From assembly GCA_021826225.1 (NCBI GenBank), contig JAKBAV010000016.1, positions 1-33,051 on the forward strand: DNA of 33,051 bases, in the 5' to 3' direction. Positions within the stretch are counted from its first letter, which is position 1; the number at the start of each line of letters is the position of its first letter. The translations under genes were made by a program, and so were the position numbers. The notes under the pieces are model-generated. The model was not told the origin of the DNA and did no database searches. It worked only from the letters and a program-made list of their open reading frames with translations. The stretch comes from Pseudomonadota bacterium. Lineage in GTDB: Bacteria; Pseudomonadota; Alphaproteobacteria; Acetobacterales; Acetobacteraceae. This document shows positions 8,456-19,987 of this stretch, piece after piece.

Positions 8456-9682
8456 TCAGCTCCGATACGACCCGTTAATATCAATATATCCATGCGTTAA
8501 ATCGCAGGTCCATACCGTGGCATGGCCGTCGCCCAGCCCGATATCCACCGTGATCTCGATCTCGCCACCCTTCATATGCGCCACAACCGGGGTCTCGTCA
8601 TAGCCCGGCACCACGCCGCCATTCTGCGCCATCCACACCCCGCCCACGGCAACGCCCAGCCGGTCGCGGTCCGCCGGCTCGCCGGCCTTGCCCACGGCCA
8701 TCACGATCCGCCCCCAATTGGCGTCCTCGCCCGCGATGGCGGTTTTAACCAGCGGCGAATTGGCGATGGCAAGCCCGATGCGCTTGGCGGAAGCATGGCT
8801 CACCGCGCCTTCGACCGTAATCGTCACCAGTTTCTGCGCACCTTCGCCGTCGCGCACCACGAGCAGCGCCAGCTCATGCAGCACCTCATGCAGCGCGCGG
8901 CGGAAATCGGCGAGATGCGCGGCGTCGTCCACCGGCTTGTTGCCGGCTTGGCCGGTGGCGAAGAGCAGCACCGTGTCGGAGGTCGAGGTATCGCTGTCGA
9001 TGGTGATGCAGTTGAAACTATGCTCCACACCTTTCGCCAGCATCGCCTGCATGGCCTGCGCCGGGATCGCGGCATCGGTGAAGATGAAGGCCAGCATGGT
9101 CGCCATATCCGGCGCGATCATGCCGCTGCCCTTGGCGATGCCGTTGATCGTAACCTCGACACCGCCGATTTTCGCGCGCCGTGTCGCGCCCTTGGCAAAG
9201 GTATCGGTGGTCATGATGGCGCCGGCGGCCTGCGCGAAGCCGTCAGCCGCCAGCCTGCCTTGCAGCTCGTCCATCACCGCGACGATTTTATGCGCCGGCA
9301 GCGGCTCGCCGATCACCCCGGTGGAGGCCAGGAATATCTGGTCCGCCGTGGTGCCGAGGGTTTGCGCCGCGGCCCGGGCCGTGGTCTCGACCGCGCGCAT
9401 CCCGGCAACGCCGTTGAACACATTGGCATTACCGGCATTCACCACCAACCCGCGCGCCACGCCGCCCTGCAGCGCCTCGCGGCAATAGGTTACCGGGGCG
9501 CCGGGGCAGAGGTTTTTGGTGAACACCCCGGCTACGGTGGTGCCTTCGGCAAATTCCGCCAGCAGCACGTCGGCCCGGCCCTTATAGCGTATCCCCGCCT
9601 CCGCCGTGGCCAGCCTTACCCCGGCCAATGGTGGCATTTCAGGAAGCGGGCGCGCCAGCGGCGAGACGGGCAGCTTGGCCAT
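8456..9682 (-). CDS. argJ: Bifunctional glutamate N-acetyltransferase / ornithine acetyltransferase
   Basis: Recycles the acetyl group from N-acetylornithine to glutamate in arginine synthesis; many members also use acetyl-CoA. The product has 408 residues, the normal length. The self-processing site is KGSGMIAPDMATML, with Thr195 as the predicted new N-terminal nucleophile that splits the precursor into alpha and beta chains. Other family blocks are VNAGNANVFNG, FLASTGVIGEPLP, NCITIDSDTSTSDT and the terminal NGSYRS. The start ATG shares one base with the TAA of the upstream parvulin gene (TAATG), so the two are co-translated. Adjacency to a parvulin gene recurs in Rhodospirillales-like genomes. 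Confidence 0.96.
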   Translation of the reverse strand: MAKLPVSPLARPLPEMPPLAGVRLATAEAGIRYKGRADVLLAEFAEGTTVAGVFTKNLCPGAPVTYCREALQGGVARGLVVNAGNANVFNGVAGMRAVETTARAAAQTLGTTADQIFLASTGVIGEPLPAHKIVAVMDELQGRLAADGFAQAAGAIMTTDTFAKGATRRAKIGGVEVTINGIAKGSGMIAPDMATMLAFIFTDAAIPAQAMQAMLAKGVEHSFNCITIDSDTSTSDTVLLFATGQAGNKPVDDAAHLADFRRALHEVLHELALLVVRDGEGAQKLVTITVEGAVSHASAKRIGLAIANSPLVKTAIAGEDANWGRIVMAVGKAGEPADRDRLGVAVGGVWMAQNGGVVPGYDETPVVAHMKGGEIEITVDIGLGDGHATVWTCDLTHGYIDINGSYRS

Positions 9683-10542
9683 TATTTCGTGGCGGGCGCC
9701 GCGATGGGCGTGCCATCGGGGTTGAACAGCTTGATGGCGACCTTGTTGCGCGCCGCATCGAGTGTGGACTGCACCGCGGCTTCACCGAGCTGCTGCTTGA
9801 TCTGCGCCTGCACGTCGGCCAGCTTGGGCGTCGGAGCGGTGCGCTTGGCCTCGCACAGAATCACGTGCCAGCCGAACTGCGTCTGCACCGGCTTGGTGGT
9901 GTACTTGCCGGGTGCCAGGGCAAAAGCGGCATCCGAGAAGGCCGGGACCATCTCATCCTTGCTGAACCAGCCGAGTTCGCCGCCATTTTTGGCGCCGGGG
10001 TCGATGCTGTATTTCTGTGCCAGCTTGGCGAAATCGGCACCCTTGTTCAGCTGGTCGATGATATCCTGGGCCTTGGCCTCGGTAGCCACCAGGATCTGCC
10101 GCGCCTCGACCTGCTCCGGGCCGGGCTTGTTGGCGTAATCCTTATTGTACTCGGCCTGCACGGCCGCATCGGTCACCTGGCTCATCACCTTCTGCTGCAC
10201 ATAGGCATTTTCGAGCTTGATATTGGCGGCGGCCTGCATCTGCTGCGCCACGGAAGGGGTCTTCTCCAGCCCTTCCTTCAAGGCCGCCGCGAGCACGGCC
10301 TTGCGGTCGACTTCCTGGCTCAGCAGCATCTGGTAGAGCTGGTCAGGCGGCAATTGCTGCGCCTGCGCCGGAACGCTCTGGAGGTCCGCCTGGAGGTCGC
10401 TCATATGGATTTTATACGGGCCGACGATCGCGACCACCGGGTCATGCGCCGTGGGTGCCGTGGCGGGCGCCTGCGTTTGTGCCAGGGCGGCGGGAGCGGC
10501 AAGTACGGCGGCAAGTGCGGCGGCAGAGCGTGACAGGCGCAT
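9682..10542 (-). CDS. Periplasmic parvulin-type peptidyl-prolyl isomerase (PpiC/SurA-like)
   Basis: From the ATG at 10542 it has 286 residues, with a clear signal peptide ending ALA-Q near residue 22. AGAGAAGG lies 10 bases upstream. An upstream in-frame start at 10584 would put 14 charged residues before the signal peptide and is less likely. A SurA-like helical N-domain is followed by a parvulin domain (EQVEARQILVATE to GWHVILCEAKR). That domain contains the hallmarks FAKLAQKYSIDPGAKNGGELGWF and FGWHVI. It probably helps fold outer-membrane or periplasmic proteins. It is translationally coupled to argJ, which has no obvious functional link. Confidence 0.9.
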   Translation of the reverse strand: MRLSRSAAALAAVLAAPAALAQTQAPATAPTAHDPVVAIVGPYKIHMSDLQADLQSVPAQAQQLPPDQLYQMLLSQEVDRKAVLAAALKEGLEKTPSVAQQMQAAANIKLENAYVQQKVMSQVTDAAVQAEYNKDYANKPGPEQVEARQILVATEAKAQDIIDQLNKGADFAKLAQKYSIDPGAKNGGELGWFSKDEMVPAFSDAAFALAPGKYTTKPVQTQFGWHVILCEAKRTAPTPKLADVQAQIKQQLGEAAVQSTLDAARNKVAIKLFNPDGTPIAAPATK

Positions 10543-10589
10543 GAGGCGGTAACCTTCTCTTGAGTTTGCGCTCCTATGCGTCAAACCCC

Positions 10590-10620: not shown

Positions 10621-11397
10621 CTACCTGCCACGGCCAAACCGGGGAAATATCGCGCCGGTACGCGCCTGATACGCGCGGTAGGCGTCGCCCCGGCTTGCCA
10701 GCATCGCGGCTTCCAGCGGCGGCACGCCCGAGGCATAGCGCAAGGTCAGGTACATCAGCCCCGGTGCGAGCAGGCTGAGCAGGCTCCACGGCTGGTGCGC
10801 CGTAATCCCCAGCACCGGCCAGGCGCACCAGAAGAGGAATTCGAACAGGTAATTAGGGTGGCGGGAGGCGCGCCACAGCCCGCTATCGCAAATTTTGCCC
10901 TTATGTGCCGGATCGGCCCGGAAAACGCGCATCTGGCGGTCGGCCAGCGCCTCACCCGCCAGCGCGCAGAGCGCCAAAGTGAAGCCCAGCGCATCGCAAA
11001 GCCGCAAGCCCATGGCCGGCTGGCGGGCCGCGTAGAGCACGGCAATGCCGAGAACCAGGGTGAACGGCCCCTGCGGCAGGACCAGCAACAGCATGTTGCG
11101 CTGGAAGCCGCCCGCCGCCCGCATCCGGGCATAGCGCGCATCCTCCGGGCCACCCGCCACCCGCTTGGCGATATGCCCGCCGAGCCGGACGCACCACAGC
11201 ACGAGCAGCACCGCCACCAGCTCCCGCCGCCATGGCACCAAACCCGCCACCAGCGCGGCACCGGCGCAAACCAGCCCGGTGCCGAAGGTCCAGAACACAT
11301 CCACCCAGCCGGCATTGCCCGCCCGCGCCTGCACCACCCAGGCGCCGAGCATGAGCAGCGACATCGCCACGCCGATGGCGAGACAGGCTACGAGCAT
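10621..11397 (-). CDS. DUF1295 / steroid 5-alpha-reductase-like membrane protein
   Basis: A 258-residue polytopic membrane protein with about six hydrophobic segments. The C-terminal block GLWRASRHPNYLFEFLFW, then YASGVPPLEAAMLASRGDAYRAYQART, is characteristic of DUF1295. That family is related to steroid 5-alpha-reductases and isoprenylcysteine methyltransferases, which reduce or methylate lipid-like substrates with NADPH or SAM. The exact reaction is unknown. It overlaps the end of the methyltransferase gene by 10 bases and closes the rpoE-chrR operon, so I infer a role in stress-induced lipid modification. No strong ribosome site precedes the ATG, which fits coupled translation. Confidence 0.82.
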   Translation of the reverse strand: MLVACLAIGVAMSLLMLGAWVVQARAGNAGWVDVFWTFGTGLVCAGAALVAGLVPWRRELVAVLLVLWCVRLGGHIAKRVAGGPEDARYARMRAAGGFQRNMLLLVLPQGPFTLVLGIAVLYAARQPAMGLRLCDALGFTLALCALAGEALADRQMRVFRADPAHKGKICDSGLWRASRHPNYLFEFLFWCAWPVLGITAHQPWSLLSLLAPGLMYLTLRYASGVPPLEAAMLASRGDAYRAYQARTGAIFPRFGRGR

Positions 11398-12410
11398 GGC
11401 CGCAGCAGGTAATGGCTCACCCCCCAGGCCGCGCCCTGGTCATGCCCGAACAGCCCCGCCGTGGCGAGGAAGAACAGCCGCCAGCGGCGCTGCCATAGTC
11501 TGGCATCCTGGCCATAGGTTTCCCGCAGGATCGGCAGGATAGCCGCCTGATTGGCATCGTATCGCGCGAGCCAGGCCAGAGCGGTCTGCTGGTAATGCCG
11601 TCCGTTCCAGCGCCAGCCCTGTTCAACCCTGAACAGATCGGCGAATTCATGGATCAGCTCATGGCTCGGCATGATGCCGCCGGTAAAAAAATAATTGGCG
11701 ATCCAGTCGGCCTCATCCTCATGGTTGAACCGGTAAGGTTGCCGGGCATGGCTGAACACATGCAGAAACAGCCGCCCGCCCGGCGCCAGCCAGTTACGCA
11801 CGCGGCTGAGCAGACCGCGCCAGTTGGCCATGTGCTCGAACATTTCCACCGAGACGATCCGGTCGAACGCCGTATCGATGCTGAAATCATTCATATCGGC
11901 GGTGATGACCCGGATATTGCCGAGCCCCAGCCGCCGCGCCTCGCTTTCGATGAACAGGCGCTGCGGCGCCGCATTCGATACAGCGGTGATGCTGGCGCCG
12001 GGAAACCGCGCGGCCATGTATAAAGTGAGCGAGCCCCAGCCGCAGCCCAGTTCCAGGATGCGCTGGCCATCCGCCAGCTGCGCGTGCGCGGCGGTTTCCT
12101 CCAGGGCACGCAGCTCGGCGGCGGCCAGATCGGTGCTGCCCTCGAACAGGCAGCATGAATATTTGCGATGCGGGCCGAGACAATGGGCGAAAAATTCCGG
12201 CGGCAATTCGTAATGCTGGCGGTTGGCCGCCTGGGCATGCTCGGCAATGGCGCGCGCCGCCATCTCATCGGCAAAGGCGCCGTTGCGGGGCGGGATGATG
12301 GCAAGCTGCGCCTGCGTGCGCCCGACCAGCCGGGAAATGCCGAAGCGCAGCAGCGCATCGGGCAGCGGTGCGCGTTCGGCGGCGCGGGATATCCGGGCGG
12401 CGAGAGTCAT
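11388..12410 (-). CDS. SAM-dependent methyltransferase, cyclopropane-synthase superfamily
   Basis: A 340-residue class I methyltransferase. The SAM motif is ILELGCGWGSLTLYMA (about 118-133). The cyclopropane-synthase-like features are QHYELPPEFF, KYSCCLF with Cys86 and VEMFEHMANW with Glu192-His193. The length and sequence style resemble the branch that also contains plant coclaurine N-methyltransferase-like enzymes, so the acceptor may be a lipid double bond or an amine. The ATG overlaps the hydrolase stop as ATGA. It is the fourth gene of the rpoE-chrR operon and is clearly not a duplicate of the second homologue at 16740-17960, since motif residues and lengths differ. Substrate is unknown; membrane lipid is inferred from context. 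Confidence 0.85.
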   Translation of the reverse strand: MTLAARISRAAERAPLPDALLRFGISRLVGRTQAQLAIIPPRNGAFADEMAARAIAEHAQAANRQHYELPPEFFAHCLGPHRKYSCCLFEGSTDLAAAELRALEETAAHAQLADGQRILELGCGWGSLTLYMAARFPGASITAVSNAAPQRLFIESEARRLGLGNIRVITADMNDFSIDTAFDRIVSVEMFEHMANWRGLLSRVRNWLAPGGRLFLHVFSHARQPYRFNHEDEADWIANYFFTGGIMPSHELIHEFADLFRVEQGWRWNGRHYQQTALAWLARYDANQAAILPILRETYGQDARLWQRRWRLFFLATAGLFGHDQGAAWGVSHYLLRPCS

Positions 12411-13273
12411 GCGGCATTCCTTTGTTCATTTGTGGGTTGCAGGTCGCGGATGAAGCCGAGGCAATCGGGCAGCACCGGCGCCAGAAATTCCAGCAAAGGC
12501 GACATCGCGCCGATCAGCAGCTTATGATCGAGCCTGGGATAATAACGCGTCTCCACCGCATCGCCCGCCGCGCGCAGCCGGGCCGCCAGGCGCTTGGTGT
12601 TTCGCGGCGCCACCGTGGTGTCGCGCAGTCCCGCCGCGAGAAAAGCAGGCGGCGCGCCGGGGGTGACGAAATTGATCGGCTGGGTGCGGGCGAGCTGATC
12701 CTCCGGCCCGAATACCTGCTTCAGCACAGGGTCCTGCAAAGGCAGAAAATCATACGGCCCGGCAAGGCCGATGAACCCGGCTATATCGCGCGGATTCATC
12801 CCCACGGCCTGGAGATATACCGGATCGAGCGCCAGCATGGCGGCATTATAGGCCCCGGCGGAATGCCCCATCAGCACCAGCCGGTCGGGGTCGCCGCCCA
12901 GCTCCGCCGCATGCCGGGCGGTCCAGGCCACAGCCCCGGCGCAGTCATACAAAAAGGTGGGGAAGCGGACCTGCGGGTAGACGCGGTAATCCGGGATGAC
13001 GGCGATGATGCCGTGCGCGGCCAGAGCGGCGCCGACGAAGCGATACATCGCCTTGCTGCCATCCTCCCAGCTGCCACCGTATAAAAACACCACCACCGGC
13101 GCATCCCTCGCGCCGTCGGGGCGGTAGATATCGAGCTTGCCGCGCGGACCAGGAGCATAGGCGACATCCCGCGTGACGTGAAAATCACCGCTGGCGGTGG
13201 CATTCAGGATCGCCACCGGCGAGCCGCAGGAAGCCAGGCCGAGCAGCAGAAACGGCGCCAGAAATCGCCGCAT
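12407..13273 (-). CDS. Lipoprotein alpha/beta hydrolase (esterase/lipase-like)
   Basis: A 288-residue protein with a lipoprotein signal: MRRFLAPFLLLGLASC, lipobox LASC with Cys16. The alpha/beta-hydrolase domain has the oxyanion motif as YGGSW (usually HGGSW in this esterase/Bd-FAE-type family) and the nucleophile elbow GHSAGA with Ser138. Asp218 (GLRDTTV) and His250 (RLDHKLL) probably complete the triad. It should be anchored to the periplasmic side of a membrane and cleave an ester. Given its place two bases after chrR and before a lipid-type methyltransferase, a phospholipid or acyl ester is a reasonable but unproven substrate. Confidence 0.85.
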   Translation of the reverse strand: MRRFLAPFLLLGLASCGSPVAILNATASGDFHVTRDVAYAPGPRGKLDIYRPDGARDAPVVVFLYGGSWEDGSKAMYRFVGAALAAHGIIAVIPDYRVYPQVRFPTFLYDCAGAVAWTARHAAELGGDPDRLVLMGHSAGAYNAAMLALDPVYLQAVGMNPRDIAGFIGLAGPYDFLPLQDPVLKQVFGPEDQLARTQPINFVTPGAPPAFLAAGLRDTTVAPRNTKRLAARLRAAGDAVETRYYPRLDHKLLIGAMSPLLEFLAPVLPDCLGFIRDLQPTNEQRNAA

Positions 13274-13275
13274 GC

Positions 13276-13929
13276 CTACTGGCCCAGGCGGCGTTGCAGC
13301 CGCCCCAGCCAGCCGCCGAGGCGTAACCCGCCCTCCAGCGCGGCCAGGCAGAGGCAGCCTTCCGCATCGGCGCGCGGCTGGTGCAGCAGCAGCTCATCGC
13401 CCTCGGCCATGTCGCCCGGGCCATAGCTGCCGGTGCAGTCGCTGTAGCCGCCATGCAGAATTTGCGTCAGCTCGTGCAGGGCGTGGCTATGGGTCACAAC
13501 CCCCCGGTTCGCCGCCACGCGCAGCAGCATCACATTGGCCTCCGGCGCCCAGGGCAGCCGCACCTGGCTATAGCGCACACCAGGGCCGAACCACAGCCAG
13601 CGCCCGATATCGCAGCCCGCCAGCACATCCGGCAGCTTCATGCCCGGCGGCAAATGGAGCATCGCGCGGCGCGGCACATGCGGCGCGGTGGTTACGGGCG
13701 GCGGCTCATCCAGCCGTGCCAGCACCTCGGCAAAGGCGGCGGGGGCCAGCGGCTCCAGCTTTTCGGCCTCCATCAATGCGCCGCCCAGCGCCTCGAACCC
13801 CGCCACGCGGGCGCGGCATTGCGGGCAGCCTGTCAGATGCGCCTCAACAACCAAAGCCAGCCCGGCATTGAGCGCGCCGGTGGCGTGGCGGAGCAAGGTA
13901 TCGTCGGCGGGATGATGCGTAATGGTCAT
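13276..13929 (-). CDS. chrR: ChrR-type zinc/cupin anti-sigma factor
   Basis: A 217-residue anti-sigma factor that should hold RpoE inactive until singlet oxygen or a related signal releases it. The N-terminal anti-sigma domain has zinc ligands His6, His31, Cys35 and Cys38 (HLTGCPQC), the same positions as known for R. sphaeroides ChrR. The C-terminal cupin keeps THSHALHE (His147, His149, Glu153) and LLHQPR (His183), matching the second metal site with a uniform shift. All ligands are therefore present. The ATG shares one base with the rpoE TAA (TAATG), giving tight stoichiometric coupling. GYGPGD-like cupin turns support the fold. This is one of the most secure functional calls in the window. 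Confidence 0.95.
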   Translation of the reverse strand: MTITHHPADDTLLRHATGALNAGLALVVEAHLTGCPQCRARVAGFEALGGALMEAEKLEPLAPAAFAEVLARLDEPPPVTTAPHVPRRAMLHLPPGMKLPDVLAGCDIGRWLWFGPGVRYSQVRLPWAPEANVMLLRVAANRGVVTHSHALHELTQILHGGYSDCTGSYGPGDMAEGDELLLHQPRADAEGCLCLAALEGGLRLGGWLGRLQRRLGQ

Positions 13930-14555
13930 TAATCGGCTCCCAGCGCATCGCGCAGCCGGACAAGGGCGAGGCGGATGCGGGATTTAACAGTGCCCAGCGG
14001 CAGGTTCAGCACCTGGGCGATGGCGGCGTGCGGCGTATCGCTGAAGAAGGACAGTTCGATGACCCGGCGCTGCTCACCGGAGAGCACCGCCAGCGCCTCG
14101 CGCATGCGCGCTGCCTGCTCGCTCTCCAGGGTGATGGCCTCGGGCGATGGCGAAAACTCCTCCTCGGGCAGCTGCGGCGCCGGCCCGCGCTGGCGCCGCG
14201 CCTGATCGATCCGCAGATTCCGGGTGATGGTGTACACCCAGGTGGCGGCGCCGGCCCGGGCGGGGTCAAAACTTTCCGCCTTGCGCCAGAGCATCAGCAT
14301 CGTCTCCTGCGCCAACTCCTCGGCGGCGCCGCCGCTCAGCCCGGCCCGCAGGTGGAACGCCTTCAGCCGTGGCGCGAAATGCTTGAACAAGGCGGCGAAG
14401 GCTTGGCGGTCACGCGCCGCCGCGACCAGCCCGATGAGCCGCGCCTGGGCCGCCGCATCGAGCGGAGAGGGCTGATCGACGGCGCTCAACGGCCCAGCCG
14501 GACGGGCAAACGGGCGGCAACGTGCTGGATCGAATATGGCTTCATGCTTGCTCAC
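13929..14555 (-). CDS. rpoE: ECF sigma factor RpoE (ChrR-controlled, ECF11 type)
   Basis: A sigma-70 family ECF factor. Region 2 runs from FAALFKHFAPRLKAFHLR through AEELAQETMLMLWRKAESFDP to WVYTITRNLRIDQARR. Region 4 contains LSGEQRRVIELSFFSDTPHAAIAQVLNLPLGTVKSRIRLALVRLR, a helix-turn-helix for the -35. Pairing with chrR points to the singlet-oxygen sigma factor. The frame is open to a GTG at 14591, but a good autoregulatory promoter (14561-14590) lies inside that extension. Translation must then begin at GTG 14555, at or next to the transcript start (a leaderless message), or at TTG 14489 (186 residues, closer to normal ECF length). I list 14555 as a compromise. Confidence 0.92.
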   Translation of the reverse strand: MSKHEAIFDPARCRPFARPAGPLSAVDQPSPLDAAAQARLIGLVAAARDRQAFAALFKHFAPRLKAFHLRAGLSGGAAEELAQETMLMLWRKAESFDPARAGAATWVYTITRNLRIDQARRQRGPAPQLPEEEFSPSPEAITLESEQAARMREALAVLSGEQRRVIELSFFSDTPHAAIAQVLNLPLGTVKSRIRLALVRLRDALGAD

Positions 14556-14560
14556 AGCCG

Positions 14561-14590
14561 GTTTTACGCAGCCCCGCCGGATTTGGATCA
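14561..14590 (-). promoter_or_regulatory. Predicted RpoE-dependent autoregulatory promoter of rpoE-chrR
   Basis: On the minus strand TGATCC (14585-14590) is followed after exactly 18 bp by TAAAAC (14561-14566). TGATCC is the known -35 core of RpoE/ChrR-controlled promoters in Rhodobacter. The transcript start would be near 14554. Its mirror partner 9 bp away drives the opposite operon. Confidence 0.65.
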
Positions 14591-14599
14591 CTCAAGGCG

Positions 14600-14629
14600 T
14601 GATCCAAGCCCGCCGCCGCCGCGTATAGC
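14600..14629 (+). promoter_or_regulatory. Predicted RpoE-dependent promoter of the lipid-modification operon
   Basis: TGATCC (14600-14605) is followed after exactly 18 bp by TATAGC (14624-14629). The start would be near 14636, leaving a leader of about 18 bases with a perfect AAGGAGG (14643-14649) before the ATG at 14654. The two -35 boxes form the palindrome GGATCAC-N7-GTGATCC. Confidence 0.65.
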
Positions 14630-14653
14630 ATTTGTAATCTACAAGGAGGCCGC

Positions 14654-15976
14654 ATGTCCGACAGGAAAAAAATCGCCGTGGCCGGCGCCGGGATATCGGG
14701 TCTCGCCGCCGCCTGGCTGCTGTCGCGGCGGCATGATGTCACCTTGTTCGAGGCCGAAAACCGCCTGGGCGGGCATAGCCATACGGTGCTCGCCGGCAAG
14801 GTGCCGGTCGATACCGGCTTCATCGTATATAACGAGCCGGCATATCCCAATCTCACGGCCCTGTTCCGGTATATCGGGGTGGCGACGCAACCATCGGACA
14901 TGTCGTTTTCCGTCTCTCTCGATGCCGGACGGGTGGAGTATTCCGGAGGTAGTGTAGCGGGCCTGTTCGCGCAACCGGGCAACCTGCTGCGCCCGCGCTT
15001 CTGGGCCATGCTGCGCGACATCATTCGCTTCTACCGCGAGGCACCCGCCGCCATGCCCCTGCTAGGCGAGACCCGGCTGGATGAGTATCTGCGCGCCGCC
15101 GGCTTCAGCACGGCATTTTGCGAGGATCACCTCTACCCGATGATCGCGGCGGTATGGTCCACCCCGGCGGGGCAGGCCGGGGCGCTGCCGGCGGCATCCT
15201 TCATCCGTTTCTGCGAAAATCACGGGCTGCTGAAGCTCACCGGCCGCCCGGTCTGGCGCAGCGTCACCGGCGGCTCGCGTGAATATGTGGCGCGGCTGCA
15301 GGCGGATTTCCGCGGCCGCATCATGCCGCGCCGCGCCGTGGCTGCCGTGCGGGATATCCAGGGCGGCGTCGAGCTGCGCGATTCAACCGGCGCCGTGCAG
15401 ACCTTCGACGCGGTGGTGCTGGCCATGCATGCCGACCAGGCGCTGCGCCTGCTCGCCGACCCCAGCCCCAGGGAGCGCGAGCTGCTTGGCGCCTTCCGTT
15501 ACACCAGCAACACCGCCGTGCTGCATCAGGATGCGCGGGCGATGCCGCGCCGGAAAGCCGCCTGGGCCGCCTGGAACTATGCCGGCGGCGGCACGGCCGA
15601 GGCGCCGGTCGCCGTCACCTACTGGATGAACCCGCTACAGGCCCTGCCCGGCAGCCAGGATTACTTCGTCACCCTCAACCCGCATATCGAGCCCAACCCG
15701 GCGCGCGTGCTGCATAGCCAGGTCTATGAGCATCCCATCTTCGATGTCCCGGCCTTGCGCGCGCAAAAAAGCCTCTGGGAGCTGCAAGGCGGCAAGCACC
15801 GCTGGTTCTGCGGCGCCTATTTCGGCGCCGGCTTCCATGAGGACGGGTTGCAGGCCGGGCTGGCCGTGGCCGAGGCGCTGGGCGGCGTGCGCCGCCCCTG
15901 GCAGGTGGCCGCGCCGAGCGGGCGCATCTGCGTTCCGGCGGCGGCGCTGGCACCGGCCCTGGAGGCGGCGGCATGA
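14654..15976 (+). CDS. Flavin amine-oxidase-like protein, UfaD-type desaturase candidate
   Basis: A 440-residue NAD/FAD-binding protein. The N-terminal dinucleotide fold has GAGISG at 11-16, an acidic strand end (LFEAE) and RLGGHSHT, as in flavin-containing amine oxidases and phytoene-desaturase-like enzymes. FSTAFCEDHLYPMIAAVWSTP and the C-terminal FCGAYFGAGFHEDGLQAGLAVAEAL are typical of the NAD(P)-binding proteins found beside DUF1365 and cyclopropane-synthase genes. In R. sphaeroides, a homologue in the RpoE regulon (UfaD) desaturates a methylated acyl chain during furan fatty acid synthesis. This gene is first in the rightward operon under a predicted RpoE promoter, with AAGGAGG 4 bases before its ATG. 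Its stop overlaps the next start (ATGA). UfaD-like function is inferred from family and position. Confidence 0.82.
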   Translation: MSDRKKIAVAGAGISGLAAAWLLSRRHDVTLFEAENRLGGHSHTVLAGKVPVDTGFIVYNEPAYPNLTALFRYIGVATQPSDMSFSVSLDAGRVEYSGGSVAGLFAQPGNLLRPRFWAMLRDIIRFYREAPAAMPLLGETRLDEYLRAAGFSTAFCEDHLYPMIAAVWSTPAGQAGALPAASFIRFCENHGLLKLTGRPVWRSVTGGSREYVARLQADFRGRIMPRRAVAAVRDIQGGVELRDSTGAVQTFDAVVLAMHADQALRLLADPSPRERELLGAFRYTSNTAVLHQDARAMPRRKAAWAAWNYAGGGTAEAPVAVTYWMNPLQALPGSQDYFVTLNPHIEPNPARVLHSQVYEHPIFDVPALRAQKSLWELQGGKHRWFCGAYFGAGFHEDGLQAGLAVAEALGGVRRPWQVAAPSGRICVPAAALAPALEAAA

Positions 15977-16743
15977 GCGCGCTGTATCACGCCAGCGTCA
16001 CCCATGGCCGCTTCACGCCGAAGCTTCACCGGCTGAAATACCGCATCTTCACCCTGCTGCTGGACCTGACGGCGCTGGATGAGGAAGCCGCCCAGCTCCG
16101 GCTGTTCTCGCGCAACCGCTTCAACCTGTTCTCTTTCCATGACCGCGATTACGGCGACGGCAACGGCGACCCTGCCGCCTGGGCGCGGGCGCAGATGCGC
16201 GAAGCCGGGCTCAACCCCGAAGGCAGCCGGATCAGCCTGCTCACCATGCCGCGCGTGCTCGGCTACGGGTTCAATCCCATATCCGTCTATTTCTGCCATG
16301 ACAGCGCGGGCGCCCTCAGCGCCATTCTGTACGAGGTCAACAATACGTTCGGTCAGCGCCACGGCTATTTCTTCACGGTGTCAGCCCGGCCGGACGGCAC
16401 GCTGCACCAGCACTGCGCCAAAAAACTCTACGTCTCACCCTTCATGGATATGGCAATGCATTATGATTTCGCCGTGCAGCCGCCGGCGGATACGCTGCGC
16501 CTGCGTATCCTGGCCGGCAATGCCCAGGGCACCGTGTTGGCGGCCGGGCTGAGCGGGCGGCGGGCGGCACTCACCGATGCCACGCTGCTGCGCGCGGCCT
16601 TCACCTACCCGTTCCTGACATTGAAAGTGATGGCCGGGATCCATTGGGAGGCGCTGCGCCTCTGGCTGAAGGGCATGCGTGTCCTGCCGCGCCCCGCGCC
16701 CGGGGCGGCAGCCGTGAGCTTCGCACCGGAGAGCACGCCATGA
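15973..16743 (+). CDS. DUF1365 family protein
   Basis: A 256-residue protein with the DUF1365 start, ALYHASVTHGRFTPKLHRLKYRIFTLLLDL, and mid-chain blocks LLTMPRVLGYGFNPISVYFCHD and AKKLYVSPFMDM. The biochemical role of the family is not settled, but it occurs regularly between the amine-oxidase-like and cyclopropane-synthase-like genes of ECF sigma/ChrR loci, so a part in acyl-chain modification is likely. There is no signal peptide. Conserved His and Cys residues (CHD, HQHCAKK) could bind metal or substrate. It overlaps its neighbours by four bases on each side, so it should be made in step with them. Confidence 0.88.
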   Translation: MSALYHASVTHGRFTPKLHRLKYRIFTLLLDLTALDEEAAQLRLFSRNRFNLFSFHDRDYGDGNGDPAAWARAQMREAGLNPEGSRISLLTMPRVLGYGFNPISVYFCHDSAGALSAILYEVNNTFGQRHGYFFTVSARPDGTLHQHCAKKLYVSPFMDMAMHYDFAVQPPADTLRLRILAGNAQGTVLAAGLSGRRAALTDATLLRAAFTYPFLTLKVMAGIHWEALRLWLKGMRVLPRPAPGAAAVSFAPESTP

Positions 16744-17960
16744 GTGAGATACAAGGCAACATGGCGGGCAGCGGGTTCCGCATCCCCCGGCCGGGCGTGG
16801 CGCTGTTGCGGCACATGCTGCGGCGGCTGTCATGCGGGCGCCTGGTGGTCGTGCTGCCGGATGGCACCAGGCTCGCGCAGCGCGGCCCCTTGCCGGGCAC
16901 CGAGGCCATGGTGGAGCTGCATAACTGGCGTCCCCTGCGGGCCATTCTGCTCGGCGGCGATGCCGGGTTCGCCGAAAGCTTCATCGCCGGGGACTGGTCG
17001 AGCCCCGATCTGCCCGCCTTCCTGCGCTTCGGCGCCGAGAACATGGCTGGGGTGGATGCCGCCAGCCAGATAACATGGCCCAGCCGGCTGCTGGCCCGGC
17101 TGCGCCACTGGACCAACCGCAACTCGCGCACCGGCAGCCGGCGCAACATCCAGGCGCATTACGATCTCGGCAACGGCTTCTACGCGCGCTGGCTCGATGT
17201 CAGCATGACCTACTCCGCCGCCCTCTATACCGCGCCGGATGATGATCTGGCCGCCGCTCAGGCGCGCAAGCTCGACCGCATCGCCACGCTGCTGCAGGCC
17301 GAACCGGGAGCGGCGGTGCTCGAAATCGGCTGCGGCTGGGGCGCGCTGGCCGAACGCCTGGCGCGCGAAGGTGCCGCGGTGACGGCCCTCACCCTCTCCC
17401 CCGCCCAGGCCGGATACGCGCAAAACCGCCTGGCCGAGGCCGGGCTCGCCGCGCACGCGGACATCGCCCTGCGCGATTATCGCGACGAGACCGGGGTATA
17501 TGACCGTGTGGTCTCCATCGAGATGCTGGAGGCGGTCGGCGAGGCCTATTGGCCGGCCTATTTCACCGCTTTGCGTGCCCGGCTGAAGCAAGGCGGGCGG
17601 GCGGTATTGCAGGTCATCACCATCGCCGAGGAACGCTTCGAGGCCTACCGGCGATCGCCCGATTTCATCCAGCGTCATGTTTTTCCCGGCGGCATGCTGC
17701 CGACCAAAAGCGCCATCGTCATTCAGGCGGCCCGTGCCGGGCTCGTGCTCAAGGCGGTTGAATGCTTCGGCTCCAGCTATGAGCTGACCCTGGCCGAATG
17801 GCGGCGGCGCTTTCTGCAAACCTGGCCCGAGGCGGCGCGCGACGATGGTTTCGCCCCCGCCTTCCGCCGGCTCTGGGAATATTACCTCGCCTACTGCATG
17901 GCCGGTTTTGCCACCGGCATGACCGATGTGGGATTTTTCGTACTGGAGCCGGCACCATGA
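16740..17960 (+). CDS. Cyclopropane-fatty-acyl-phospholipid synthase homologue, probably a methylase (UfaM-like)
   Basis: A 406-residue lipid methyltransferase. The start at 16740 overlaps the DUF1365 stop (ATGA); an in-frame start at 16644 would lie wholly within DUF1365 and is rejected. The N-terminal lipid-binding region is followed by HYDLGNGFYARWLD (140-153), SAM motif VLEIGCGWGALAERLA (193-208) and HVFPGGMLPT near 313-322. The Cys of the YSCAY motif, a bicarbonate ligand in true cyclopropane synthases, is Ala160 here (TYSAALY). The EHVG motif reads EAVG (Glu264-Ala265). SAM binding looks intact while ring closure looks impaired, which fits a methylating enzyme such as Rhodobacter UfaM. 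Its acceptor is probably an unsaturated phospholipid chain. Confidence 0.88.
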   Translation: MSEIQGNMAGSGFRIPRPGVALLRHMLRRLSCGRLVVVLPDGTRLAQRGPLPGTEAMVELHNWRPLRAILLGGDAGFAESFIAGDWSSPDLPAFLRFGAENMAGVDAASQITWPSRLLARLRHWTNRNSRTGSRRNIQAHYDLGNGFYARWLDVSMTYSAALYTAPDDDLAAAQARKLDRIATLLQAEPGAAVLEIGCGWGALAERLAREGAAVTALTLSPAQAGYAQNRLAEAGLAAHADIALRDYRDETGVYDRVVSIEMLEAVGEAYWPAYFTALRARLKQGGRAVLQVITIAEERFEAYRRSPDFIQRHVFPGGMLPTKSAIVIQAARAGLVLKAVECFGSSYELTLAEWRRRFLQTWPEAARDDGFAPAFRRLWEYYLAYCMAGFATGMTDVGFFVLEPAP

Positions 17961-18358
17961 AGAGCTATTTTCTCGCCTATATCATTACCGGCGGCATTTT
18001 CGCGGTCATGGACGCGGTCTGGCTGAGCCTCATGGCCGGGCGCCTGTACAAGCCGGTGCTGCATGAAATCCTGGCACCAAAGGTCCAGGCGGCACCCGCC
18101 ATCATCTTCTATTTGCTGTATATTCTTGGGCTGGTCATCTTCGCGGTGGCGCCCGGTCTGGCGGCGGGGCGCTGGAGTGCCGCCCTCTGGCGCGGCGCCT
18201 TGTTCGGCCTGTTCACCTACATGACCTATGACCTGACCAATCAGGCGACGATGCGGGTCTGGGCCACCAGCATCACCGCCGCCGATATCGGCTGGGGCAT
18301 GGCGGCCAGCGCCACCGCCGCCACTCTGGGCTGCGCGGCACTTCTGGCGTTGCGGTAA
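17957..18358 (+). CDS. DUF2177 family membrane protein
   Basis: A 133-residue inner-membrane protein with four hydrophobic helices. MKSYFLAYIITGGIFAVMDAVWL and FGLFTYMTYDLTNQATMRVW are the recognisable DUF2177 blocks. The real start is the ATG at 17957, overlapping the TGA of the methyltransferase; an upstream frame extension to 17798 is internal to that gene. The family has no agreed biochemical function but is often found in RpoE/ChrR-type stress loci with lipid-modifying genes. A role as membrane adaptor or transporter is possible. The next gene starts directly after its stop. Confidence 0.85.
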   Translation: MKSYFLAYIITGGIFAVMDAVWLSLMAGRLYKPVLHEILAPKVQAAPAIIFYLLYILGLVIFAVAPGLAAGRWSAALWRGALFGLFTYMTYDLTNQATMRVWATSITAADIGWGMAASATAATLGCAALLALR

Positions 18359-18886
18359 ATGTGGGCACTGGCGAGGCATGACGACAGGCTGACGGCGGCC
18401 TGCAACCGGGTGGCGCTGCTGCTGGCGGGGAACACGCCGTTTTATCCGCTCTACCTGTGGTTCATCCTGGGCCGGGCAGGCTGGCCCGCGCTGCTGCTCA
18501 CCGGCCTGTCGCTGCCCGTCTTCATGGCGACCATCTGGGTGGCGCGCCGTCATCCACTGGCCGGGCGTATCTGGCTGTGCACCGCCGCCAGCCTCAACAC
18601 CGCCTGGGTCACCTGGCTGCTGGGCGCGCCATCCGGCATCACCTTGTTCTTCCTGCCCTGCCTCGTCCTGGCCGTACTGGCATTCCGCGGCACCGAGCTT
18701 CTGCCCCGGGCGCTGCTCACCCTGCTCCCCCTCGGCCTGTACGCCGCATCCCTCTGGGCCCCGCACGCCCCCGCGATATATCCGGCGGCGGATTATCCCG
18801 GCCTGGTCCGGCTCAATGCCGCCGCCGTTGCGTCACTATGCGTCATCCTGCCTTACATGCTGGGCGCCGCCCGGGGCGAAGGTTAG
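18359..18886 (+). CDS. Unrecognised polytopic membrane protein, last gene of the lipid operon
   Basis: A 175-residue protein with about six hydrophobic helices (roughly 18-37, 40-60, 70-90, 94-112, 116-133, 150-168) and a short cytoplasmic tail. The ATG follows the DUF2177 stop without a gap (TAA-ATG), so it belongs to the same operon. I do not recognise a named family. The pattern of an N-terminal R/N-rich helix (CNRVALLLAGNTPFY), then RIWLCTAASLNTAWV and LGAPSGITLFFLP, recalls the membrane sensor halves of some GGDEF/adenylate-cyclase proteins. No output domain follows. It could be a stand-alone sensor or a small transporter. Confidence 0.7.
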   Translation: MWALARHDDRLTAACNRVALLLAGNTPFYPLYLWFILGRAGWPALLLTGLSLPVFMATIWVARRHPLAGRIWLCTAASLNTAWVTWLLGAPSGITLFFLPCLVLAVLAFRGTELLPRALLTLLPLGLYAASLWAPHAPAIYPAADYPGLVRLNAAAVASLCVILPYMLGAARGEG

Positions 18887-18895
18887 AGCGGAGGC

Positions 18896-19987
18896 CTAGA
18901 TAGCCTCGGCGTGAAGGCTGTAGCGCATGGTTTTGGGCGCCAGCGGATCAAGCCAGACACCATCGACCTGCGCCTGCGGGTACATCAGAAACGGCACGAC
19001 CCGGCCGCCGCCGCCAGGCAGGGCGACATCATTGGCATGGTTATACGGCATCCAGTTGCCCTCCCACGCCCCGAACAGCCCCTTGCGCACCGCCGCCACG
19101 CGCGGGTCGGTCAGAGTCAGCCCGCCTTTCACCTCATCGAGCATCACCTTGCGCACATCGGCCGGGTCCATGGCGGTCCAGCCATAGCCCTCCAGATACA
19201 CCTCGGCCCGGCAATGCTGCGCGCTGGTCACATCGGCGGTATTCGCGCCGAGGCTGCGATAGCCGAATTGCGATTGCGCCACGCGCACGCCGTAAATATC
19301 ACGCGCCGGAATGCCGGCGGCCCGCACCAGCCCGACGAAAAGCCCGTTGAGATCGGCGCATTTGCCGCCGAAATCGGCGTATTTGAGCATCGCCCCGACA
19401 TTGCCGGTGCCGCAGCCCCGAACCGCATGGTCGCGATGGGTGTTGCAGACGACCCAGCCGTAAATCGCCGCGGCGCGGGCGCGATCCCCGGTGAGGCCCT
19501 GGACGATCTGGCCGCTGAGCCGCGCGATCGGCCCGGTGACCGGAATATATTGCGTCGCCCCGGTATATTGCGCCCGTTCCGCCACGCTGAGCGGCGCCAC
19601 GGGGCGTGGATCATTCCAGTTCACCGCACGGTCGCGCGAGGCAAACCGGCTGGTCACCGCAATCGCCGGCGTGGCACCTGGTTCCCACATGACATGGAGC
19701 ATTCTCGCACCGCCGGCATCGACCTCCCGGGCGGAGAAATCCGCGCCATGCCAGTCATTGCCGAGCGGCGTCACCCAGGCGGGATCGCTGACCGAAGGCA
19801 GCGGCACCCAGGCCTGCGCCAGCCGGCCGGGCGTGGCCAGGTTCAGCGTCGTTGTCACCGCGTAGCGCTTCCAGCCATCCTGCGGGCGCGGCGCGAAGAG
19901 CGGCGCCGGCGCGGCGCGACCGAGGCTGGCATAGGAGGTTCCCGCCGCGAGGGCAGTGAGAAACTGGCGTTTGGTGAAATCCGGCAT
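18896..19987 (-). CDS. Exported transglutaminase-like domain protein
   Basis: A 363-residue protein with a signal sequence TKRQFLTALAAGTSYASL, which resembles a Tat signal in its KR variant; Sec export is also possible. The transglutaminase-like fold carries a Cys-His-Asp triad: Cys210 in GGKCADLNGLFVGLVRAAGIPAR, His258 in QHCRAEVYLEGYGW, and Asp274 in AMDPADV. Bacterial members are usually peptidases or amidases rather than cross-linkers. The start has a good GGGGAGA site upstream. The gene ends 9 bases from the convergent lipid operon and diverges from an SDR gene over a region with a small palindrome. No partner gene indicates the substrate. Confidence 0.85.
   Translation of the reverse strand: MPDFTKRQFLTALAAGTSYASLGRAAPAPLFAPRPQDGWKRYAVTTTLNLATPGRLAQAWVPLPSVSDPAWVTPLGNDWHGADFSAREVDAGGARMLHVMWEPGATPAIAVTSRFASRDRAVNWNDPRPVAPLSVAERAQYTGATQYIPVTGPIARLSGQIVQGLTGDRARAAAIYGWVVCNTHRDHAVRGCGTGNVGAMLKYADFGGKCADLNGLFVGLVRAAGIPARDIYGVRVAQSQFGYRSLGANTADVTSAQHCRAEVYLEGYGWTAMDPADVRKVMLDEVKGGLTLTDPRVAAVRKGLFGAWEGNWMPYNHANDVALPGGGGRVVPFLMYPQAQVDGVWLDPLAPKTMRYSLHAEAI

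Follow-up and report, generated by a model that had tools for sequence, protein, structure and literature searches.

The window analysed here, a stretch of 33,051 nucleotides, is a whole contig (JAKBAV010000016.1) from the draft genome of an Acetobacteraceae bacterium (assembly GCA_021826225.1), which spans 2.59 Mb and is 87% complete. Positions 10621..18886 of the window are predicted to hold a compact singlet-oxygen regulon island for dimethyl-furan fatty acids, controlled by a sigma-E/ChrR pair of the extracytoplasmic function 11 (ECF11) type; we put the probability of this reading at roughly 0.82. The core of the island is already known: it is that of the sigma-E/ChrR furan-fatty-acid regulon, here in an unusually complete form. 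An earlier sequence-only reading had described ten genes in two arms around a shared control region, and the ten open reading frames (ORFs) and their overlaps were verified, with a pair of predicted promoters in the control region. The minus arm runs rpoE, chrR, a lipoprotein hydrolase, a 340-residue methyltransferase and a DUF1295 protein; the plus arm runs a UfaD-like flavoprotein, a DUF1365 protein, a 406-residue methyltransferase, a DUF2177 protein and a membrane protein (Table 1). Within each arm, neighbouring genes overlap or stand at most 2 bases apart.

Nine of the ten ORFs have clear Pfam/NCBIfam assignments (DUF1295, CMAS, BD-FAE hydrolase, ChrR, ECF sigma, flavin amine oxidase, DUF1365, CMAS and DUF2177), and the tenth, the last membrane protein, barely passes the MASE7 model (26.3 bits; cut-off, 26.2). 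The RpoE-ChrR, UfaD-like and UfaM-like identities proposed earlier hold on domain matches and, for UfaM, on a tree. The idea of a membrane-lipid modification locus is likewise upheld, as relatives of furan-fatty-acid enzymes are present. The families had been named correctly, but their known enzyme relatives, UfaO for DUF1365 and FufM for the 340-residue methyltransferase, had been missed; the last protein, formerly called unknown, indeed belongs to no clear family, apart from its marginal MASE7 match.

The control genes point to an ECF11-type sigma-E/ChrR system, for which induction by singlet oxygen is predicted: the anti-sigma zinc residues, the cupin-like residues and TGATCC-type promoters before both rpoE and the target operon are all found. 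Every ChrR residue that aligns with H31, C35, C38, H141, H143, E147 or H177 of Rhodobacter sphaeroides ChrR is conserved, and the cupin-like domain matches Cupin_7 with an E-value of 3.3e-7. We take H31, C35 and C38 to be the zinc site and H141 and H143 to be ligands in the cupin-like domain; E147 and H177 are required for the singlet-oxygen response of R. sphaeroides. The motif TGATCC-N16-CGTA stands on both strands of the control region, facing apart, and on these back-to-back sites the joint control of both arms that had been claimed earlier stands as a prediction. The listed start of the sigma ORF (14591) lies upstream of sigma's own predicted promoter; therefore, the true start is probably one of the two downstream codons given in Table 1.

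In the whole draft genome, TGATCCN15-17CGTA occurs at 13 sites, compared to 2 for the pattern read backward. Twelve of the 13 overlap a stop-to-stop frame of more than 150 residues, and because both island sites are among them, such overlap does not sort motif sites. Among 34 ChrR loci with an opposite-strand ufaD within 3 kb, four of which were scanned imperfectly because over-long ORFs hid the intergenic gap, a TGATCC-N15-20-TA site faces ufaD in 15 loci and rpoE in 20, with sites in both directions in 11. Elsewhere in the draft genome, an exact motif at G000:C96:3084-3109 (L121) was also noticed 25 bp upstream of an ORF that by eye encodes a lipocalin-like lipoprotein, a possible further member of the regulon.

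The substrates of UfaM, UfaD and UfaO in R. sphaeroides are vaccenoyl chains already present in phospholipid, which these enzymes convert to a methyl-furan chain, and DUF1365 is present in UfaO homologues (PMC7380195). According to the same paper, the Rhodopseudomonas palustris counterparts are RPA2569, RPA2571 and RPA2570, and a second methyl group is added by FufM, RPA0924. Homologues of UfaM, UfaD and UfaO are all present and clustered in the island, UfaD and UfaO being assigned by family, gene order and published family names and not by tree; a UfaM-UfaD-UfaO furan pathway with production of 9M5-FuFA is predicted. The order ufaD-ufaO-ufaM recurs in many loci. The 406-residue UfaM and the protein encoded beside UfaO in Rhodopseudomonas sp. 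B29 share 47% identity across 370 residues and fall in one clade (98/95).

The 340-residue methyltransferase was placed through the same congener. A search of the whole B29 genome returned three CMAS genes of at least 142 bits (next, 45 bits), which are UfaO-adjacent, cyclopropane-fatty-acid (CFA) type and DUF1295-adjacent, respectively. The DUF1295-adjacent protein is 56% identical to the 340-residue protein over 342 residues, and in a 31-protein tree of three clades the two group together (100/100). In PMC7380195, two of the R. palustris proteins are compared to R. sphaeroides UfaM: RPA3082, with 38% identity and no phenotype, and FufM, with 26%. Since the three B29 genes match the three described for R. 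palustris, the 340-residue protein is called FufM by elimination; it would group with RPA0924, apart from both UfaM and CFA synthase, and is a putative methyltransferase of 9M5-FuFA but not of 18:1.

Table 1. Predicted genes and promoters of the island, in window coordinates
Feature	Position	Strand	Basis or remark
DUF1295 integral membrane protein, SRD5A/sterol-reductase/ICMT fold	10621..11397	-	
fufM candidate, S-adenosylmethionine (SAM) methyltransferase, FufM/coclaurine-N-methyltransferase-like clade	11388..12410	-	tree and family profile
lipoprotein alpha/beta hydrolase (BD-FAE/HSL-like esterase)	12407..13273	-	Pfam PF20434, 97.5 bits
chrR, zinc anti-sigma with cupin-like domain	13276..13929	-	TIGR02451, 174.4 bits; cut-off, 124.5
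rpoE, ECF sigma factor	13929..14555	-	Sigma70_r2, Sigma70_r4_2; start GTG 14555 or TTG 14489
predicted sigma-E promoter TGATCC-N16-CGTA for rpoE-chrR-hydrolase-fufM-DUF1295	14565..14590	-	
predicted sigma-E promoter TGATCC-N16-CGTA for ufaD-ufaO-ufaM-DUF2177-receptor-like gene	14600..14625	+	
ufaD, UfaD-like flavoprotein acyl desaturase	14654..15976	+	Amino_oxidase, NAD_binding_8; gene order
ufaO, DUF1365, furan-forming oxygenase family	15973..16743	+	PF07103, 275.4 bits
ufaM, cis-vaccenoyl methyltransferase clade	16740..17960	+	PF02353, 253.7 bits; clade with B29 protein
DUF2177 small membrane protein	17957..18358	+	PF09945, 139.4 bits
stand-alone MASE7-like membrane domain, class III adenylyl cyclase receptor type, without cyclase	18359..18886	+	

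The flanking genes, a transglutaminase-like protein (18896-19987, minus strand) on one side and a PPIC-type rotamase followed by ArgJ (9682-10584, minus strand) on the other, appear unrelated to the island.

The grouping of these families recurs. The best 80 of 578 confirmed relatives of the 340-residue protein, 56-79% identical to it, define 80 named FufM loci, a set that is selected on FufM and includes some short contigs. DUF1295 is found in 66 of these loci, UfaD in 60, UfaO in 59 and DUF2177 in 57, followed by UfaM and ChrR (36 each), sigma (35), the receptor-like last protein (31) and the hydrolase (24). The gene-order comparison proposed by the sequence-only reading found all ten families together in eight of the 80: a near relative (L124), metagenome bins L136 and L139, a Methylobacterium bin (L140), Bosea (L144, L161 and L174) and Neoroseomonas soli (L173). 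The hydrolase, DUF1295 and the last membrane protein had been regarded as extra here; they recur across Alphaproteobacteria, and that view is rejected. By eye, a small secreted DUF2147-like protein was seen in 11 of the named loci (L126, L133, L134, L137, L141, L144, L174, L182, L192, L195 and L198), a DUF6134-like protein in seven and a photolyase/cryptochrome-like protein in four.

A second set, anchored on ChrR, comprised 101 loci (100 plus the window; four anchored on ChrR matches below the cut-off, with one split match, G230, left out). Comparing the 12 loci with FufM to the 89 without, DUF1295 was found in 12/12 versus 2/89, the receptor-like gene in 9/12 versus 0/89, the hydrolase in 8/12 versus 2/89, DUF2177 in 5/12 versus 2/89 and UfaO in 12/12 versus 43/89, counts that ignore shared ancestry, with many of the 12 loci coming from one family. 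Chance grouping was rejected on these co-occurrence counts. Among 232 genomes of the class, the window's own included, UfaO is present in 121, FufM in nine (9/9 with UfaO, p 0.0025), DUF1295 in 34 (31/34 with UfaO, p 2e-7) and DUF2177 in 28 (26/28 with UfaO, p 1e-6), with p-values that ignore shared ancestry. The receptor-like protein is rare (four genomes, one by a short match), and all four have UfaO.

The 80 named FufM loci contain 79 exact copies of the promoter motif. For 61 of them a module gene follows closely, the site falling between 450 bases before and 200 bases past the first start of the ORF, whereas 60 permuted motifs averaged 0.43 such placements among 4.0 sites. These 61 sites belong to sigma (26), ufaD (20), DUF2177 (10), DUF1295 (3), the methyltransferase (1) and the hydrolase (1). 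The 36 FufM loci that have ChrR contain 73 exact motifs, of which 31 are near a module gene even when sigma and chrR are left out of account.

Several observations weigh against a singlet-oxygen regulon for dimethyl-furan fatty acids, in whole or in part. The other 44 of the 80 FufM loci have no ChrR in view, and the sigma-E motif shows no enrichment in them: a module gene besides sigma and chrR is nearby for only 4 of 6 exact motifs and, at one mismatch, for 13 of 126, and eight permuted controls, also scanned at one mismatch, gave comparable fractions. Universal sigma-E control of fufM-DUF1295 was rejected on this ground. Because of these 44 loci, and of the DUF1295-FufM pairs that stand alone in B29 and BTAi1, we conclude that the enzyme set is more widely conserved than its sigma-E control. 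One locus from the same genus (L011, genome G110) has rpoE-chrR and no module lipid gene within 20 kb; therefore, the island varies within the genus. The draft genome, of which ~13% is possibly missing, gave no reaction-centre match, which makes a phototrophic host improbable; any singlet oxygen would then come from elsewhere. The class-wide p-values share the limit stated with them, and the FufM assignment, made by elimination, runs through the congener B29 and a published likeness to At4g33110, not through the sequence of strain CGA009 itself. In PMC7380195, the second methylation needs FufM alone, both in vitro and in R. sphaeroides, therefore DUF1295 is dispensable for that step there. The same paper reports no detectable fatty-acid effect for RSP1087-1089 of the R. 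sphaeroides operon, so operon membership proves no lipid role.

An RskA-like anti-sigma was seen by eye in five FufM loci (L128, L166, L170, L186 and L202), and a weaker match to an ECF sigma accompanies it in four of the five, which hints that another regulator replaces sigma-E/ChrR there.

The plus arm ends with a 175-residue protein (ORF end, 18886) with the predicted helical membrane-anchor fold of a class III adenylyl cyclase receptor domain (MASE7/Rv1625c type). Different from the Rv1625c adenylyl cyclase, whose membrane receptor domain it resembles, it has no covalently joined cyclase catalytic domain, and its four class-wide matches lie within open frames of 144-254 residues. It is predicted to be shaped like the lipid-sensing part of an adenylyl cyclase. 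The earlier notion of sensing in the membrane has hereby gained a concrete candidate. The last two plus-strand proteins gave no PADLOC match at E 0.01. That the last protein is instead a structural or transport protein, sharing the helical fold of the cyclase membrane anchor by chance, is a serious alternative that falls only a little short of even odds.

DUF1295 has the membrane fold of the steroid 5-alpha-reductase/ICMT superfamily and shares a PNY stretch with PbSRD5A; it is likely an NADPH-dependent C=C reductase. A FufM-type gene directly adjoins DUF1295 in Bradyrhizobium sp. BTAi1 and Rhodopseudomonas sp. B29 (L176, L196). DUF1295 and FufM may form a separate unit, for example for reduction of methyl-branched chains, that was merely captured beside the furan genes here, since in some loci, these two included, the pair stands with no furan genes in view. 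In addition, a deletion of RPA0923, which is numbered next to fufM and, judging from B29, is probably a DUF1295 gene, was built, yet the Results are silent on RPA0923 (PMC7380195). However, the genome-wide association of DUF1295 with UfaO given above argues against this idea, as do two ChrR loci (L085 and L096) in which DUF1295 stands together with UfaO and DUF2177 and no FufM is nearby. We regard a separate unit as rather unlikely.

It is improbable that the 340-residue protein is, instead of FufM, an enzyme methylating amine nitrogen or a second cyclopropane synthase. The best solved relatives of the 340-residue family are plant coclaurine and pavine N-methyltransferases, its profile giving 286 bits with the coclaurine N-methyltransferase 6gkv and 138 with the CFA synthase 6bqc; a cyclopropane synthase identity is disfavoured by this profile and by the separation of the protein from the CFA-type clade. 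We take At4g33110 to be a coclaurine-N-methyltransferase-like plant protein. FufM itself is 38% identical to At4g33110 (PMC10940516), so that likeness to the plant enzymes does not set the 340-residue protein apart from FufM. Moreover, its gene accompanies UfaO in 59 of the 80 loci, and B29 has no other FufM candidate left.

The hydrolase is a lipoprotein (lipobox LASC at residues 13-16) with an intact GHSAG motif. The sequence-only reading had it free an acyl chain for methylation, desaturation or reduction, and transport, and the lipoprotein signal, the intact motif and the reductase-type fold of DUF1295 agree with this; however, such an order is the least probable of all, as UfaM, UfaD and UfaO use pre-existing phospholipid chains (PMC7380195), which makes initial release unnecessary for synthesis, and a hydrolase match occurs in only 10 of the 101 ChrR loci, compared to 55 with UfaO. 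That order had also missed oxygenation by UfaO and the second, furan-directed methylation by FufM.

R. sphaeroides resembles the window in its rpoE-chrR, its operon RSP1091-1087 starting with ufaD-ufaO, its sigma-E control and its UfaM. Its ufaD-ufaO operon presumably adjoins rpoE divergently. Different from the window, where ufaM is inside the locus, ufaM of R. sphaeroides (RSP2144) lies elsewhere, judging by gene number; the reported FufM is that of R. palustris, not of R. sphaeroides, whereas the window locus has its own fufM candidate; and where the window adds DUF1295, DUF2177, the hydrolase and the receptor-like gene, the R. sphaeroides operon has RSP1087-1089. Like the window, R. palustris has relatives of all four furan enzymes and the order ufaD-ufaO-ufaM (RPA2571-2569), and in B29 a fufM-type gene adjoins DUF1295. 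However, R. palustris has two separate loci, with fufM standing apart, compared to one divergent sigma-E/ChrR locus in the window.

For Arabidopsis, eukaryotic relatives of UfaM/D, UfaO and FufM have been described (AtUFAMD1, AtUFAO1 and AtFUFM1/LIME1; PMC10940516). In Chlamydomonas, SAK1 is required for singlet-oxygen induction of 104 genes, among which, in order of induction, CFA1 ranks 2, CFA2 11, DUF1365 18, DUF2177 22 and DUF1295 25 (PMC4067076, Table 5). These algal genes carry the same family names as those of the window, a likeness by name and not by tree, and are under SAK1, whereas the window's set would be under sigma-E/ChrR. The CFA2 gene is also labelled coclaurine N-methyltransferase, CPLD27 (PMC4067076), which suggests that CFA2 is of the FufM-type branch. 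A 2021 review connects CFA with R. sphaeroides and the furan lipids of that species (PMC8491031). In the literature searched, no work was found joining DUF1295 or DUF2177 to furan fatty acids.

By homology to tested proteins of other organisms, the island would work as follows. ChrR would hold sigma-E until singlet oxygen or organic peroxides trigger ChrR turnover, and the freed sigma-E would fire both back-to-back promoters. A vaccenoyl chain of phospholipid would be methylated by UfaM and desaturated by UfaD, UfaO would close the furan with O2, and FufM would add the second methyl group; the furan chain would then act as a singlet-oxygen trap. For the remaining proteins, we infer that DUF1295 may be a membrane reductase acting on the methylated, furan or oxidised chain, that the lipoprotein hydrolase may strip damaged chains at the envelope, that the last protein may be an orphan cyclase-type lipid receptor domain binding C18 or furan acyl chains for reporting or buffering, and that DUF2177 may be an accessory membrane protein.

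Oxidation of a furan by singlet oxygen leaves an ene-dione, for which there is ring re-closure chemistry. A bolder and quite unlikely extension is that the island has its own lipid sensing and recycling, with furan quenchers that are regenerating rather than sacrificial, and that green algae share the same gene set. The lipoprotein esterase would then release C18:1 or furan acids, the orphan cyclase receptor domain would read these free acids, and DUF1295 would reduce the post-quench ene-dione to a chain able to re-close as a furan.

Taken together, DUF1295, DUF2177, the lipoprotein esterase and the MASE7-like protein become candidates for the unexplained part of furan-fatty-acid biology, with a link to the singlet-oxygen genes already listed in print for an alga. 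In a laboratory strain of R. palustris, deletions of RPA0923 and RPA0924 have already been made (PMC7380195). Of most interest are DUF1295, with its reductase fold, and the orphan membrane domain of cyclase type: a stand-alone cyclase-receptor fold beside a cis-vaccenoyl-modifying pathway offers a testable ligand hypothesis for how bacteria may monitor their protective lipids.

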